A stretch of 64,000 nucleotides of DNA from Methylobacillus caricis (lineage in GTDB: Bacteria; Pseudomonadota; Gammaproteobacteria; Burkholderiales; Methylophilaceae), in assembly GCF_020532705.1 (NCBI RefSeq), contig NZ_JAJAVD010000001.1:558001-622000 (forward strand). The letters are read 5' to 3'. Positions within the stretch are counted from its first letter, which is position 1. The number at the start of each line of letters is the position of its first letter. This document shows positions 43,638 through 64,000 of this stretch, piece after piece. The notes beneath the pieces were generated by a model. It saw only the letters and a list, made by a program, of their open reading frames with translations, had not been told where the DNA came from and did not search any database. Position numbers and translations under genes: made by a program.

Positions 43638-43847
43638 ATGACACGTTCTGCTCTGCTTGCCGCTCTGCTCGCACTTGCTCTGACCGCTTGTGGTCAAAAG
43701 GAAGAAGCTCCTGCTGAAGCTCCTGCTGTTGAAGAAGCTGCACCTGCAGTTGAAGCACCTGCAGTTGAAGAAGCTCCAGCTGAAGTTGCACCTGCTGAAG
43801 AGGCTCCAGCACCTGCTGAAGAAGCTCCAGCTGAAGAAGCTAAGTAA
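43638..43847 (+). CDS. Ala/Glu/Pro-rich small lipoprotein
   Basis: 69 residues. A lipoprotein signal with the lipobox LTAC at residues 16-19 (LLALALTACGQK), then a low-complexity tail made almost only of A, E, P and V in imperfect EEAPAEAPAV units. AAGGG is upstream and a strong terminator follows. The tail is disordered and acidic, so a periplasmic tether or spacer is plausible, but no function is known. Confidence 0.8.
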   Translation: MTRSALLAALLALALTACGQKEEAPAEAPAVEEAAPAVEAPAVEEAPAEVAPAEEAPAPAEEAPAEEAK

Positions 43848-57789: not shown

Positions 57790-57930
57790 GGAATCAAAGG
57801 GGTCAGACTCGATGGAATCAAAGGGGTCATGGAATCAAAGGGGTTGGAATCAAAGGGGTTGGAATCAAAGGGGTGGAATCAAAGGGGTGGAATCAAAGGG
57901 GTGGAATCAAAGGGGTGGAATCAAAGGGGT
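57790..57930 (+). repeat. Tandem array of 14-bp units from the transposon end
   Basis: Nine copies of GGAATCAAAGGGGT start at 57790, 57814, 57831, 57846, 57861, 57875, 57889, 57903 and 57917. The last five abut with a 14-bp period; earlier ones carry one extra T or 3 to 10 extra bases. Copies 1 and 9 are followed by CAGACTCGAT, the inner part of the 26-bp terminal repeat of the adjacent element. So the array is the outer half of the transposon end, multiplied. Confidence 0.95.
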
Positions 57931-58736
57931 CAGACTCGATTGATCCATAATTATCGTTGACGACGAAAAGCCTCTGACTTCCTGTCTCCACCTCTAGGTA
58001 GCTTGTCTATTCTACGGTTGAGTTGTTGAGCAATCTTTTGCTTGAAATATTCGCTTCCCAGTACCCAAGCTTTGTTGGTAGCTTCTCTTAGCTGATGCAG
58101 GCTCAGTTCATCAATATGCGCTTCAAACAAGCACCGATAATGCACCTGCCTGGATGTTTCGTCATTGCCCAGCCTGTGATACATCGTATGAGGGGTCACC
58201 AATGGATCAGCTTGTCCCAGTGCATTGGCACGATAGCTACTCCATGGATATTCAGCAGGGAGTTGCACCATGTTGGCTCTGACTGGATTCAGTTCAATAT
58301 AGCGATAACAGAGTAGGGCATAGGTTTCACTATCAATCAGGCTGGCTTTGTAGCGGCCTTCCCAAAGGGTGCCGGTACGTCGATAGGTAACGTTGTAATA
58401 TTGCACGTAATGTCGGCCCACACTTTGCATCATCTTCGCAATGCTATTCTCTTGATGAGGCGTGACCAATAAATGTACATGGTTGGTCATCAAGACATAG
58501 GCATGAATATCACATTGATGTTTCTTGGCAGCTTGCGACAGTTTGTCCAGGAAGAAGTGATAGTCTTCTTCCGCAGAAAAAACCGGTTCACGGTTATTGC
58601 CGCGGATGATGATATGTTGAGGGTGTCCCGTCAGTACAAAGCGTGGTAGGCGAACCATTCGAGTCTCTCCAACAGAAACTGCTCTCACCATAGCAGCCGC
58701 TTGAAGCAAAATCAATCGAGTCTGACCCCTTTGATT
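57919..58736. mobile_element. RAYT-type element with perfect 26-bp inverted ends
   Basis: The left end 57919-57944 and right end 58711-58736 are perfect 26-bp inverted repeats (inner core GGGGTCAGACTCGATTGAT at the left). They bracket a single Y1 transposase gene. No target-site duplication is visible, as expected for single-strand HUH/Y1 transposition. The ends resemble the GGGGTCAGACTCGA sequences that commonly surround such transposase genes in proteobacteria. Confidence 0.88.
57951..58658 (-). CDS. REP-associated tyrosine (Y1) transposase
   Basis: 235 residues from the ATG at 58658 with GGAGAG upstream. Family start MVRLPRFVLTGHPQHIIIRG; the HUH-type histidine pair is in AYVLMTNHVHLLVTP and the catalytic Tyr region in GRHYVQYYNVTYRRTGTLWE. 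GRYKASLIDSETYALLCYRY and AEYPWSSYRANALG are conserved. Intact, so the element may still be active or act on nearby repeats. Confidence 0.93.
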   Translation of the reverse strand: MVRLPRFVLTGHPQHIIIRGNNREPVFSAEEDYHFFLDKLSQAAKKHQCDIHAYVLMTNHVHLLVTPHQENSIAKMMQSVGRHYVQYYNVTYRRTGTLWEGRYKASLIDSETYALLCYRYIELNPVRANMVQLPAEYPWSSYRANALGQADPLVTPHTMYHRLGNDETSRQVHYRCLFEAHIDELSLHQLREATNKAWVLGSEYFKQKIAQQLNRRIDKLPRGGDRKSEAFRRQR

Positions 58737-58782: not shown

Positions 58783-58869
58783 TCAATTGACTCCAAGTCG
58801 GGAAAGAGGATTAACGGAAACTATCTTCCCAGTGGTTGGATTAATAGCAACAATAGGGGACAGACTGGG
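58783..58869 (-). pseudogene. 3' relic of a toxin-like C-terminus
   Basis: 28 codons and a stop on the minus strand: SPIVAINPTTGKIVSVNPLS is the type of sequence that ends many polymorphic exoprotein toxins. It is cut at its 5' side near a hairpin (58852-58860 with 58873-58881) containing GGGGACAGAC, a motif common at RAYT-type insertions. Confidence 0.4.
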
Positions 58870-58908
58870 CTATCCCCTATTATTCATTATTTTCATTTCT
58901 GTGATGTA

Positions 58909-59034: not shown

Positions 59035-59844
59035 CTATTTTATATTTTTTAATGATTGGAGAATGGTACTAAATACTTCTGGAGGAAGTAGGATGCTAGC
59101 CGCAAATGGTGTTGCAATTAGAACATTTAATTTATTCGCAGCCTCTCCGATGTTACCTCGTAAAGTGTTGTCTAATTGTTTTCCAGTTCCGATCTTGTCA
59201 TACCAGATAAAGCTATTGAGAGTATCATGAGTGCCGGAGTAAGCCTCTGCTAATCTATCCCAAAAATCTCCGGTAGAGTATTCAAATTGTACCCCTAATG
59301 CCATTTGACCATTACTGCCTTGCACTCCACAGAGTGGACTTATTAAATCCTGATTTTGTGCAATAAAATCGTTAATTGTTATATCATTTCCTTGTGCATC
59401 TTTTGGTTTAAAAATAACTGTGCCATCAGAGTTTTCTGCGTATCCACTTTTTGTAGATAGGTCGGCTTGGCATGCACCAGCACCAGCAACTTCACACCAT
59501 TTTTCCAGTACAATCCGTCCGCCAGCTAGCTTGAAATTATCTCCATTAACACCAACACTTACTCCTGAAGCATTATTAATACAATCGTTTTCGCTGGCAC
59601 AAAGATTTTTGAATTTCTTTGAGTCGTCAATCATTTTCTGCCGCATCACATCAGCAGCCCAGGAAAGAGACTCCTTAGTGACGGTAGAAGTAAGTTCGGC
59701 AGAGCTGCCGCCGATCGCAGCGATGATGATATTCGCAGCCCTGCGGTAATTACCATTGCCATTCCAGTTCTCATAATTAGATTTGGCTTGTGGGTCATTT
59801 AGTATCGCTTGAGCTGATTCCAGCGTCATTCCCGAGGCTTCCAA
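59035..59844 (-). pseudogene. Orphan C-terminal module of a TPS adhesin (FHA/CdiA-like)
   Basis: 269 codons from a TTG, with the reading frame open only 10 codons further before a TAA; no good ribosome-binding site is seen. The sequence matches the conserved C-terminal module of FHA-type exoproteins: TKESLSWAADVMRQKMIDDS, VSVGVNGDNFKLAGGRIVL, EAYSGTHDTLNSFIWYDKIG and ATPFAASILLPPEVFSTILQ. It is intact to the end but lacks any export signal, so it is an orphan cassette that could recombine onto the upstream exoprotein gene. Confidence 0.65.
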
Positions 59845-59905
59845 TACTGCCAGCCGGTTACTCTTACCCTTTAATTAATTTGAATTGCTTGATTTTATTT
59901 AAATG

Positions 59906-60499
59906 CTATTTACATGGAGGCGCGGGCTGGAGTTTTATCTCGATTGGATTAATTTCCCCTGTAATATCATCAGCGACTAGTTCCCGAACTCTTAGATTGC
60001 ATCGGCCGCCTTCCAAAAGAAGTGCAGCATCATAATCTTTTCCGGGTTCAGGGCTAAAGCTTCCTGTAAAAGGGCCACAACTAGCGTGCCTCCATTGTCC
60101 ACCGACTTCTCCATTGGCGACATAGGTGGAATAGATGGTTATTGGCTGACTTGCTTGCACGATAAACTCGTTGTACGCCCAAGTGATGTCATCTGTTATA
60201 GGCATCCCGATCTTTCTGTTTTTGCTTAACTGGGACAAACCATAAAAAAGACCATAATCTTTTCCACCAGAAAAAGCAGGAATCGTTGCTTTATCGTACA
60301 AGGTATAACAAGACTTGTTGGGATGAAGATAAACGAATGCCCCTGTGGTGAGTACGCGCATGCGGGCAATAGGTCCATGTTCTGGAGAGGCATCCAGCAC
60401 TTTGGGTCCTGCACATGCGGTCAGCATGCTGATAACAATCATAAAAAGCAGGAGATTTCGAGAGTTCATGAGATTTATCTTAAAGATATGGGGCCACAT
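59906..60499 (-). CDS. Lipoprotein of unknown function beside the TPS locus
   Basis: 197 residues. The signal ends in the lipobox MLTACAGPK (about residues 24-32); an AGGGAG site supports the start at 60499, though the Met at 60469 is also possible. The body is beta-rich (TGAFVYLHPNKSCYTLYDKA, PITIYSTYVANGEVGGQWRH) with four cysteines after the lipidated one. No homologue known to me. Placed between a lipoprotein and the orphan adhesin module. Confidence 0.72.
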   Translation of the reverse strand: MWPHIFKINLMNSRNLLLFMIVISMLTACAGPKVLDASPEHGPIARMRVLTTGAFVYLHPNKSCYTLYDKATIPAFSGGKDYGLFYGLSQLSKNRKIGMPITDDITWAYNEFIVQASQPITIYSTYVANGEVGGQWRHASCGPFTGSFSPEPGKDYDAALLLEGGRCNLRVRELVADDITGEINPIEIKLQPAPPCK

Positions 60500-60531
60500 A
60501 TCTATGCTCCCTATTATTGTTTTAACGGGAG

Positions 60532-61524
60532 CTACTCAACGTTAGACGGGATTGGCTCAAACTTGAATGATTCCAGCCAGTGCCTTAAAAATTCCTGACG
60601 CTTGGTTAGCCAGTCGGGGACGTGTGTTGCTAAATCTCCGCTATACCATGCAAGCATTGCAAACGTGTAGTTGCCTACCTTGGTGATATAGAGTTCATCA
60701 ACTCCAGAAGATGCTCCTGGCACATTGTACTTTTCTTGGACAGGGTCACTTTTTCCATAAATTATGCTCCACTTCATATACTCCCACTCCCGCCCATTAA
60801 TGGTGACGGTTTCTTTTTTGGTACGGGGGTCGGTGGTAAATTTACCTCTACTAAAATTACTCCCCGTTGGTAATTTGTGACCTTCAATAATCATCGGCCA
60901 AAAACCGATCATGGTGGCTCGGTAATTCAGGCCATCCATACTCACATGGGGCAATGTCCACACCCGTACTGCACCTTTGCTGGGGTCCAAGTTATAACGG
61001 AGGCGCACATCATATTTGTAATCGGGCTCCAATTGAGTAAATAAACCACCTATGCCAGGACTGGTGATGACTTGGGTAGAAATGCCGTTTTGGCATAGTT
61101 GTTGTGGGTATTTCGGTGGGATACGGGGGGGGGTCGGATAAACCGTGACATCCCAGATACGGTCGTAAGTCACCATAAAGTCCAAAGGCGGATGCGTGTA
61201 ATCTGTAGCAGGTCTCTCTTTAGTGTCTTGAGAGAGAAAATATGCGCTTCCGGTGCGATCATCTACCGCGTGTCTGTCTTCGTCAGTCAGCGCCGACCCG
61301 TGCGTGCGGCGTGGGGTATAGTCCACCATGTGCCTGTCATGGTCGGGTTTCACAATAACCTGCGCACGGCACATGACTTTCATGTCGCTCATCACGGGCA
61401 TGCCTTTTTGGTAGCGTGGCAGCGACATTTCTTCTATTTTCTGATACCCAGTCATGCTGCAGGCGCTGAGTGTAGCTATACCTGTGGCGCTGATGAACAG
61501 AAGGGTGGTAATGGATTTATACAT
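60532..61524 (-). CDS. Lipoprotein, candidate immunity protein of the exoprotein
   Basis: 330 residues. Signal MYKSITTLLFISATGIATLS with lipobox LSACS at residue 22. The mature part has no known domain to me; it contains an Arg/His/Asp-rich stretch (DHDRHMVDYTPRRTHGSALT) and a beta-rich second half (YKYDVRLRYNLDPSKGAVRV, KKETVTINGREWEYMKWSII). It starts only 3 bases after the exoprotein stop codon, so the two are translationally coupled. A surface or periplasmic immunity role against the C-terminal hydrolase is inferred from this position only. Confidence 0.7.
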   Translation of the reverse strand: MYKSITTLLFISATGIATLSACSMTGYQKIEEMSLPRYQKGMPVMSDMKVMCRAQVIVKPDHDRHMVDYTPRRTHGSALTDEDRHAVDDRTGSAYFLSQDTKERPATDYTHPPLDFMVTYDRIWDVTVYPTPPRIPPKYPQQLCQNGISTQVITSPGIGGLFTQLEPDYKYDVRLRYNLDPSKGAVRVWTLPHVSMDGLNYRATMIGFWPMIIEGHKLPTGSNFSRGKFTTDPRTKKETVTINGREWEYMKWSIIYGKSDPVQEKYNVPGASSGVDELYITKVGNYTFAMLAWYSGDLATHVPDWLTKRQEFLRHWLESFKFEPIPSNVE

Positions 61525-61527
61525 GGT

Positions 61528-64000
61528 TTACCTTGGTGGGTTGCTGGAAACAGGCGCAACCGTTGTGGTCGGCCAAGTGGAAGGGTCATTCCAGCGGTAG
61601 GTGGAGTGTGCGCTATCGCTCGTGGTAAATAAAGCCTTCAGCTCCAATACCGATTGCAATAGATTGCCTAGCTCAACTCCTTGTAAATGCGTGGCTGAGT
61701 TGGGGTCATTATATTGATTGGTTTGACCTAAATTACCACCTACCACCGTGGCAACAGGGTCATTGGCGTGATTATGGTAACCAAGGCCATTAATACTATT
61801 ATCTATTGGACCATTAACATTGCCATAGGCCAACCAGTTAGCCTGCTGTTCAGGCGTTGCGCCTGCCAAACCGGCGGCATTCAATGCTGCAGCGACTGCT
61901 GCGCCTGTGGAAGATGCCGGCCCGAAGTAATCGATATGCAGATTAGGGTTTGCATTACCTTGTGCGGCATAATCATTCAAGGCAATGTTGCTGGAGAGCG
62001 TGCCGCCGCTATGGGAAAGGAGATTGGTTTCACCGTGGCCTCCCACTTGCTGGTTGCCGTGAGAGGCGATCAAGGCTTGCACGATGGCGTCTGAAGTGTT
62101 GGAAGTCGCTTTGGCGTATTGGTCGATGGCTGCATTGAGCAAATCGGCCAGGCTGCCCTGGGTGTCGTTATAGGACAGGTAAATGGATTGATTTTCACCA
62201 TTCGTTGGTAAATGACCAATACCCAGCACCAATGCGCGGTCTGGCTCATTCAGAATGCCATTCACGGCAATATTAAATAGACCTTCACTATTGCTATCCA
62301 CGGCTTTAATCTCGAATAGCGGTGTATCGTCTTTTTTTAGATCGGCTAAGGCCTTGATGCGTTCTTCTAGCGGCAAGTCTGCATTGTTAATGGTGTCGCC
62401 TAGCCCAGAGGCGGCTTGTGCGCATTCAGGCGGTGATTTTTTACAAGTGGCAATAAACCCTTGCGTGATGTCGCTATCGCGCTTTTGTGCAGTTAACAAG
62501 AAGGCATTGCCCAGCGTCCCAACTGCATAACTGGTGGCGGCATTCGCGATATCAATTTCACCAGCCAAACTACCGACCAGTATATTACCCAAAGTGAGTG
62601 CTAAGCCTTGCGATAGGCTTGGTTTGTCACGTTCATTGCGAATATCAATCGCTTGATAACGCAGTGTTTGCGCTTCGGCTATTAAACTAGCTGCTTCGCT
62701 TGTTTTACCGCTGGCATTCAGAACAGCCGCTTCTGCTTCTTTGTCTCTGGCGAGGTTGAGCTTGTCATTATATTGCTGATCATATTCCGCCATTCTTTTG
62801 ACGTAATACGAATTGATGGCCGTAGTCACTTGCTGGGTGGCTGCGCTGACAATGCTTGCATTCGCCGCTATTTCATTTTGAATGGCTGTGATGTCAGGTT
62901 TAGTCAATACATCATTGTTGGCTGTGTCAGTATCCCGGTTTAAGGTAGCGATGGTTGTTTCGGCATTTTTACCAGTCAATGCAGTTTGCTTTGCATCATC
63001 AGTAATGGCAATTTGTGCTGTACTTACCGCGCTATGCGTAACACTGGAGTCTGTGCCTGACTGATTTAGGTCGGGTGTCAATGTACCAGGAAGATTGACT
63101 AAATTATTACCAATATTTTTGGTGATGGATTGGTTAGAGTTATAAGACATACTTAAGCTCATGCTACTACTGTCGGCTGCATATTCTGCTCGATTCTGAA
63201 TGTCCGAAACCGTGAGCGTCTCCGTAGTCAGGCTGTTCCTATTCTCCGCAATCGCTGTTTCAGTCGATGCAATCACTGCCCCCTTGAGGTCGGTATTGCC
63301 GTTGACATTGACCTGGAAGCCGCCATCTCCCGCAAATATACCCGCCTGCTCGTTGACCGAGGCATAGTCGCTATTGATCTTGCTGCTGGACGAACTGAAC
63401 GACCCGCCGGCCATGCCCGCGCCAACCGGCACACTGACGCTGATGCCGGCGCTTTTCTGCTTGCTGTCGTAGGTGCTGGAGTCCTGCAAACTCTGGATAT
63501 TGAGATTGCCCTTGCCCGAAGTGCCGACGTTGGCTACTACCTGATCGCCCTTGACTTGCGAACCGATGATATTGGTATCCGTGCCACTTTCCAGGCTGAC
63601 CTTGTTGCCAGCCTGTACCACGCTTTCTGTCCACGTGACATCCGACCCATTGGCCTTGCCTTTACCCTGTGATGCGCTGGCGGTAATGGCAAGCCCGTTG
63701 GAACCGATGCTGATGCCGACACTGGCACTGCTGTTTTTATTCTTGCTGTTAAGTGTTTCCGTGTTCTGCGCAGCGATCAGGTTCACCTTATCATCCGCTT
63801 TCAGGTTGACATCTCCGCCTGCCTTGATTGTGCTGCCGATGACGTTAATATCAGATTGCTCGCCAGCCCCTGTGGCCTGGATGGCAATATTGCCGCCCGC
63901 CATCACATTGCTGCCTTGAACCGTGCTGCTGGTTTGCGTGGAGGTGCTGCTGCTTTTGCTGGTGCCGATGGAAAGACTAATGTTGACGCCGCCTGCCTGA
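61528..64000 (-). CDS. Filamentous haemagglutinin/CdiA-like exoprotein, 5' end outside the window
   Basis: 823 codons visible, open past the right edge. Haemagglutinin-type repeats (NVIGSTIKAGGDVNLKADDK, NIIGSQVKGDQVVANVGTSG, SDYASVNEQAGIFAG) mark a two-partner-secretion beta-helix. A charged helical region (about KRMAEYDQQYNDKLNLARDK) and a hydrophobic part follow, then DKPSLSQGLALTLGNILVGS. The last 250 residues hold IASHGNQQVGG and LLSHSGGTLSSNIALNDYAA (Ser codon at 62008-62010), with later GLGYHNHANDPVATVVGGN, compatible with a Ser-Asp-His hydrolase. The C-terminal domain thus looks like an enzyme, possibly a toxin. Confidence 0.82.
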   Translation of the reverse strand, partial: QAGGVNISLSIGTSKSSSTSTQTSSTVQGSNVMAGGNIAIQATGAGEQSDINVIGSTIKAGGDVNLKADDKVNLIAAQNTETLNSKNKNSSASVGISIGSNGLAITASASQGKGKANGSDVTWTESVVQAGNKVSLESGTDTNIIGSQVKGDQVVANVGTSGKGNLNIQSLQDSSTYDSKQKSAGISVSVPVGAGMAGGSFSSSSSKINSDYASVNEQAGIFAGDGGFQVNVNGNTDLKGAVIASTETAIAENRNSLTTETLTVSDIQNRAEYAADSSSMSLSMSYNSNQSITKNIGNNLVNLPGTLTPDLNQSGTDSSVTHSAVSTAQIAITDDAKQTALTGKNAETTIATLNRDTDTANNDVLTKPDITAIQNEIAANASIVSAATQQVTTAINSYYVKRMAEYDQQYNDKLNLARDKEAEAAVLNASGKTSEAASLIAEAQTLRYQAIDIRNERDKPSLSQGLALTLGNILVGSLAGEIDIANAATSYAVGTLGNAFLLTAQKRDSDITQGFIATCKKSPPECAQAASGLGDTINNADLPLEERIKALADLKKDDTPLFEIKAVDSNSEGLFNIAVNGILNEPDRALVLGIGHLPTNGENQSIYLSYNDTQGSLADLLNAAIDQYAKATSNTSDAIVQALIASHGNQQVGGHGETNLLSHSGGTLSSNIALNDYAAQGNANPNLHIDYFGPASSTGAAVAAALNAAGLAGATPEQQANWLAYGNVNGPIDNSINGLGYHNHANDPVATVVGGNLGQTNQYNDPNSATHLQGVELGNLLQSVLELKALFTTSDSAHSTYRWNDPSTWPTTTVAPVSSNPPR

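Follow-up and report, generated by a model that had tools for sequence, protein, structure and literature searches.

Evidence for tandem duplication in place at one end of a TIRtron in Methylobacillus caricis

How does a transposable element come to carry nine copies of a part of one of its own ends? The question is raised by a locus of Methylobacillus caricis in a window of 64,000 nucleotides, by which we mean the whole stretch of DNA that was analysed. Here the sequence GGAATCAAAGGGGT occurs in nine exact copies between positions 57790 and 57930, on the + strand only and without substitutions in any unit. The copies start at 57790, 57814, 57831, 57846, 57861, 57875, 57889, 57903 and 57917, that is, with start-to-start spacings of 24, 17, 15, 15, 14, 14, 14 and 14, and from the spacings of 14 it follows that the innermost five form a perfect 14-bp tandem. 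An earlier note on this DNA had reported both the nine copies and the five units in perfect tandem, and these observations are confirmed. Shuffled sequence gives 0.39 matches to GGAATCAAAGGGGT with two mismatches permitted, and a genome-wide search found no tenth copy of the 14-mer anywhere in the 2.97-Mb genome, that is, none of the free units for which the note had proposed a search.

The units become shorter towards the element. The bases that follow GGGGT are CAGACTCGA plus T, CA plus T, T, T and then none, until the innermost copy continues into the complete TIR GGAATCAAAGGGGTCAGACTCGATTGATCC. A complete end had been described as standing both first and last in the array; this holds for the last copy, while the first is only near-complete, since it ends with CTCGA, and the closing arm TTGATT is missing. 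The features are collected in Table 1.

Table 1. Features of the array and of the adjoining element (positions in the window).
Feature	Position	Strand	Basis
Outermost unit, near-complete end GGAATCAAAGGGGTCAGACTCGAT, without TTGATT arm, period 24	57790..57813	+	
Unit ending after GGGGTCA, period 17	57814..57830	+	
Two units ending after GGGGT, period 15	57831..57860	+	
Five perfect 14-bp units; the innermost doubles as outer arm of the complete TIR	57861..57930	+	
Complete TIR, transposase 3' side, AATCAAAGGGGTCAGACTCGATTGATC	57919..57945	+	sequence, weak hairpin
TIRYT-type Y1 transposase, 254 aa, motifs NHVH, WE, YIELNP	57951..58715	-	
Complete TIR, transposase 5' side, single copy, AATCAAAGGGGTCAGACTCGATTGATT	58710..58736 (+/- one or two bases)	-	

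Short tandem arrays can be mis-sized, and an assembly artefact was therefore considered. However, the array of 141 bp is internal to a 1.94-Mb contig, and similar structures are present in contigs of 3.66 Mb (L136) and 1.54 Mb (L251) as well as in complete plasmids (L216, L217). With similar arrays in multi-megabase contigs and complete plasmids, we consider the probability of an assembly error to be practically negligible.

The array adjoins a complete TIR of a 0.8-kb element whose sole gene encodes a Y1 transposase, the only gene of this kind in the source genome. The protein matches the Pfam family Y1_Tnp with 6.8e-16, while its scores against the NCBIfam models REP_Tyr_transpos (77.8 bits) and transpos_IS200 (26.3 bits) are under the respective cut-offs of 80 and 55. 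It is longer than the median of 238 aa and has a C-terminal extension; subclass 2.1 is characterised by an extension resembling a helix-turn-helix at this end of the protein, but Pfam shows no HTH here. Its motifs NHVH, WEGRY and YIELNP fit the motif table for TnpA-Y1 of subclass 2.1 (NHVH, W[EQ], YIELNP; Quentin et al. 2018, PMC6006769). Both ends of the element are inverted repeats AATCAAAGGGGTCAGACTCGATTGAT with a match to GGGGWSAS, GGGGTCAG, and the end core AAAGGGGTCAGACTCGA has three copies in the genome, every one of them at this element. This is the arrangement of the TIRtrons or TIRYTs, for which a Y1 transposase flanked by GGGGWSAS TIRs is described by Di Nocera et al. 2013 (PMC3733652).

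By these motifs and TIRs we classify the element as a TIRtron (TIRYT; RAYT group 1, subclass 2.1) and not as a GTAG REP system. RAYTs with GTAG REPs go together with GTAG- or GTGG-tagged hairpins that are dispersed genome-wide, whereas here the ends are GGGG and the core stands three times at one element; the classifying paper reports no REP-like hairpins at TIRYT genes (PMC6006769). Strictly speaking, the element, for which the earlier note had used the word RAYT, is no REP-associated RAYT: it is TIR-flanked, its ends are GGGG, and there are no dispersed core copies. The canonical IS200/IS605 elements (IS608) belong to the same family of Y1 HUH single-strand transposases, but the canonical IS200 enzyme (TnpA subclass 1.1) is short and has Y-x-x-x-Q and DH[VI]H, where the window enzyme has NHVH and YIELNP.

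The nearest relative of the transposase is found in M. arboreus, with 97% protein identity, and the element there has one copy at each end. In M. arboreus the same TIRs also occur 0.14 kb apart without a transposase (L207, G053:C4:1900-3200, about 566-703), a pair that forms a MITE-like derivative, possibly mobilised by the TIRYT. The genome G534 and other relatives hold several identical element copies per genome. The transposase-less pair and these identical copies together argue that the family is mobile.

It is essential for the interpretation to know where the element ends. Five further TIR copies in two Methylobacillus relatives have AATCAAAGGGG in common while the preceding bases differ, and in the element of the window the bases before AATCAAAGGGG likewise change from one end to the other. 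Since the preceding base varies in both comparisons, the GG of GGAATCAAAGGGGT is to be assigned to flanking DNA. The unit is thus not exactly the outer 14 bases of the element end, as had been supposed; instead, these comparisons indicate that 2–3 flanking bases (GG or TGG) are copied along with the TIR's outer arm. The point is of consequence, since the insertion of a solo end would import no local flank.

One can imagine that the array was built by nested insertion, with element copies or solo ends landing in an existing end and the bodies being lost later. Other members of the family are indeed mobile, as the identical copies in G534 indicate, and at the ends of locus L015 cores of different TIR families are found close together. 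However, the repeat units contain the local flank of the very end at which they stand, such as catag at L098 and TGG in the window, and nested insertion is on this ground largely refuted and rejected. A direct before-and-after comparison speaks against it as well. Namely, two loci of G534, L251 and L253, share a common upstream flank of 92 bp and an element that is identical over 792/792 bp, and L251 has one additional 14-bp unit, TATAAAGGGGTCAG, that L253 lacks. The gain is exactly 14 bp, with nothing foreign in it. We therefore regard nested insertion as quite improbable.

A second case is provided by two Skermanella species, in which an orthologous element with flanks conserved on both sides carries different stutters, with units of cacgcaaatGGGGTCAG in one species and gaggaaatGGGGTCA in the other. 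The G534 pair and the orthologous Skermanella locus show that units arise in place. The outer half-end has been duplicated repeatedly in tandem and in situ, together with a few flanking bases, and the survey described below shows that break points are restricted, that microhomology is generally lacking, and that the process recurs and turns over across the family. This agrees with the earlier reading of the array as a direct tandem amplification of the end of a Y1 element.

We now consider the break points. In 46 mapped duplications the unit starts 6-12 nt 5' of GGGG, with a peak at -9/-8, which coincides with the boundary of the element or lies a few bases beyond it. The inner junctions lie mainly at +7 (after GGGGTCA), at +5/+6 (after GGGGT and GGGGTC) and at +2 (GG/GG), and have a tail at +9 to +19; the +2 cluster and the tail mean that there is no single strict cut site. 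An earlier test, conditional on units that contain GGGG, had placed 26/38 junctions at +5 to +7 (expected 9.3); it was superseded by the unconditional mapping, which exposed the cluster at +2. A second sample was drawn from the phylum after the break-point prediction had been written down. In this sample, which is small and comes partly from the same class, the prediction held for 9/10 junctions (expected 3.8, P about 0.0009), and 9/10 unit starts were inside the predicted range.

These data bear on the strongest competing account of the primary events, namely that the end hairpin gave rise to them purely through replication slippage or template switching, with no part played by the transposase. 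Slippage requires no enzyme, the ends fold into a weak hairpin, and the five perfect 14-bp copies of the window are typical slippage products. The clustering of the break points at fixed distances from GGGG argues against it, as do the junctions, which have no microhomology in 27/46 duplications of the first sample, a share close to that of random joining that excludes homology-driven slippage only in part, and in 7/10 of the second. As a full account we find plain slippage unlikely, although the last rounds of multiplication of the 14-bp unit in the window are probably due to it.

How common such stutter is was surveyed at 146 loci with related transposases, with one genome per species. Within the 100 bp next to the gene, 11.5% of the sequence consists of tandem repeats, compared to 0.1-1% past 200 bp, and a tandem repeat within 250 bp is found at 70/266 ends, compared to 14/266 at 500-750 bp (Fisher 1.3e-11). 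In the second sample the coverage was 7.1% at the ends and about 0.1-1% elsewhere. Where a TIR pair is recognisable, 25/54 elements have a duplicated end. The earlier note had called this kind of end amplification rare; about a quarter of the related ends in fact carry tandem copies. The nine copies of the window are the longest array among 201 core-bearing ends, the next having 7 and 5, and the exact two-unit version of this array is absent from the other genomes searched. Canonical IS200 ends, on the other hand, are almost without stutter, with 1/53 in the sample (1.6e-5 against the TIRYT ends), although they bear hairpins by published description, which is a further point against slippage alone.

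Because break points are restricted, microhomology is generally lacking and IS200 ends rarely stutter, we favour a cut-and-rejoin reaction of the transposase that the element itself encodes. In our preferred reading, to which we give a probability of roughly 0.6, the 3'-side end of the TIRtron was stuttered in place, most likely by its own Y1 transposase, and was then extended by slippage. In the primary event the outer boundary, which lies 9-10 nt 5' of GGGG, would be joined to a site within the same end; for the window this site would lie after GGGGTCAGACTCGA, GGGGTCA or GGGGT. The transposase would cut single-stranded DNA at the boundary, leaving a 5'-phosphotyrosine, and near GGGGTCA, leaving a 3'-OH, and the boundary 5' end would be joined wrongly to the internal 3'-OH, the two ends coming from sister strands or from a slipped strand. 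Each event would add a truncated outer copy while the innermost copy remains complete. Once two near-perfect 14-15-bp units were present, ordinary replication slippage could bring their number to nine.

The catalysis by the transposase, the strand involved and the slippage for the last copies are parts that we infer. The joining of a 5' end to a 3'-OH is in itself usual in the superfamily; the related E. coli TnpA-REP cuts single-stranded DNA near REP, and the cut product is then linked to a free 3'-OH (PMC8266576). The breaks could alternatively be localised by the weak end hairpin or by polymerase stalling, and arrays with no transposase seen nearby (L205, at a contig end) count against a role for the enzyme. 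The two causes named in the earlier note, end cleavage by the Y1 enzyme and slippage, are still the leading ones.

The array might instead be functional and under selection, for example as a multi-site binding platform, which the earlier note had suggested, or as a transposase sink. Its nine identical units and its length, unequalled at any surveyed end, would suit such a role. However, the closing arm of the end hairpin is absent from the truncated units, the array folds no better than shuffled sequence, and copy number and unit vary between orthologous loci, with one copy in the closest relative. The platform idea thus finds no support here, and selection on the array appears very improbable.

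Turning to what has been described before, TIRs of TIRtrons have been reported to stand singly, as dimers or in groups (Di Nocera et al. 2013), so that TIR dimers and clusters are already known; the available part of that text has no truncated outer-half tandem copies, break points or in situ duplication (PMC3733652). Tandem REPIN clusters containing flanking DNA are known as well, beside each of three RAYT genes, and a second, unknown mechanism was proposed for them (Bertels and Rainey 2011, PMC3116915). Their units include flanking sequence, as those of the TIRYT stutter do, but consist of whole REPINs with GTAG REPs, whereas the stutter unit, in most cases 11-19 bp long, is half a TIR with 0-6 flanking bases. 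In the literature searched there is apparently no description of half-end stutter with fixed break points, of how frequent it is, or of a before-and-after pair such as that in G534.

More tentatively, and with somewhat less than even confidence, we suggest that TIRYTs perform a site-directed, replication-linked joining of the outer boundary to the site after GGGGTCA, which would stutter the end outward by one unit at a time. If so, RAYT group 1 enzymes would have a single-strand cut-and-rejoin activity of a distinct kind, and the REP and TIR clusters that were attributed to the second mechanism (PMC3116915) might have originated in this way. From the footprint of the stutter one can derive cleavage positions that are open to test, about -8 and +5 to +7 as counted from GGGG. 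Strong TIRYT relatives were found in 106/272 sampled genera of the class; these enzymes are common, yet rarely treated by that name in the literature searched.

A search of 187 genomes of the family with a less strict pattern of paired GGGGT matched mostly unrelated sequence, except for an array of 13 cores in G143. There (L205, G143:C7:1000-3065), 13 GGGGTC cores lie on one strand over 2 kb as a mosaic of full and truncated units; the TIR is of a different type (AAAGGGGTCAGGTTACATTAAATCCC), the array having arisen independently of the one in the window, and no transposase was seen on its short contig. Three Paraburkholderia caribensis plasmids and their relatives encode transposases that are more distant, and no GGGGTCA core adjoins the gene there. 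Similar tandem duplications with the core GGTGACA stand beside more distant Y1 transposases at L329 and L332, and stutter may thus extend past GGGGTCA ends.

Some observations concern the surroundings in the window. Beside the element, 58848-58890 holds an inverted AATAGGGGACAGACT...ATCCCCTATTATT that looks like a remnant of a second TIR family, of the GGGGACAGA type. A filamentous-haemagglutinin-like gene (59035-63906) with a short C-terminal module adjoins the element, and in M. arboreus a further similar module lies on the element's far side, which indicates that the flanks have been rearranged around it. Finally, an imperfect tandem repeat at 43701-43841, with a period of 15-36 and many GAAGCTCCTGCT units, is probably a Glu/Ala/Pro-rich coding linker.
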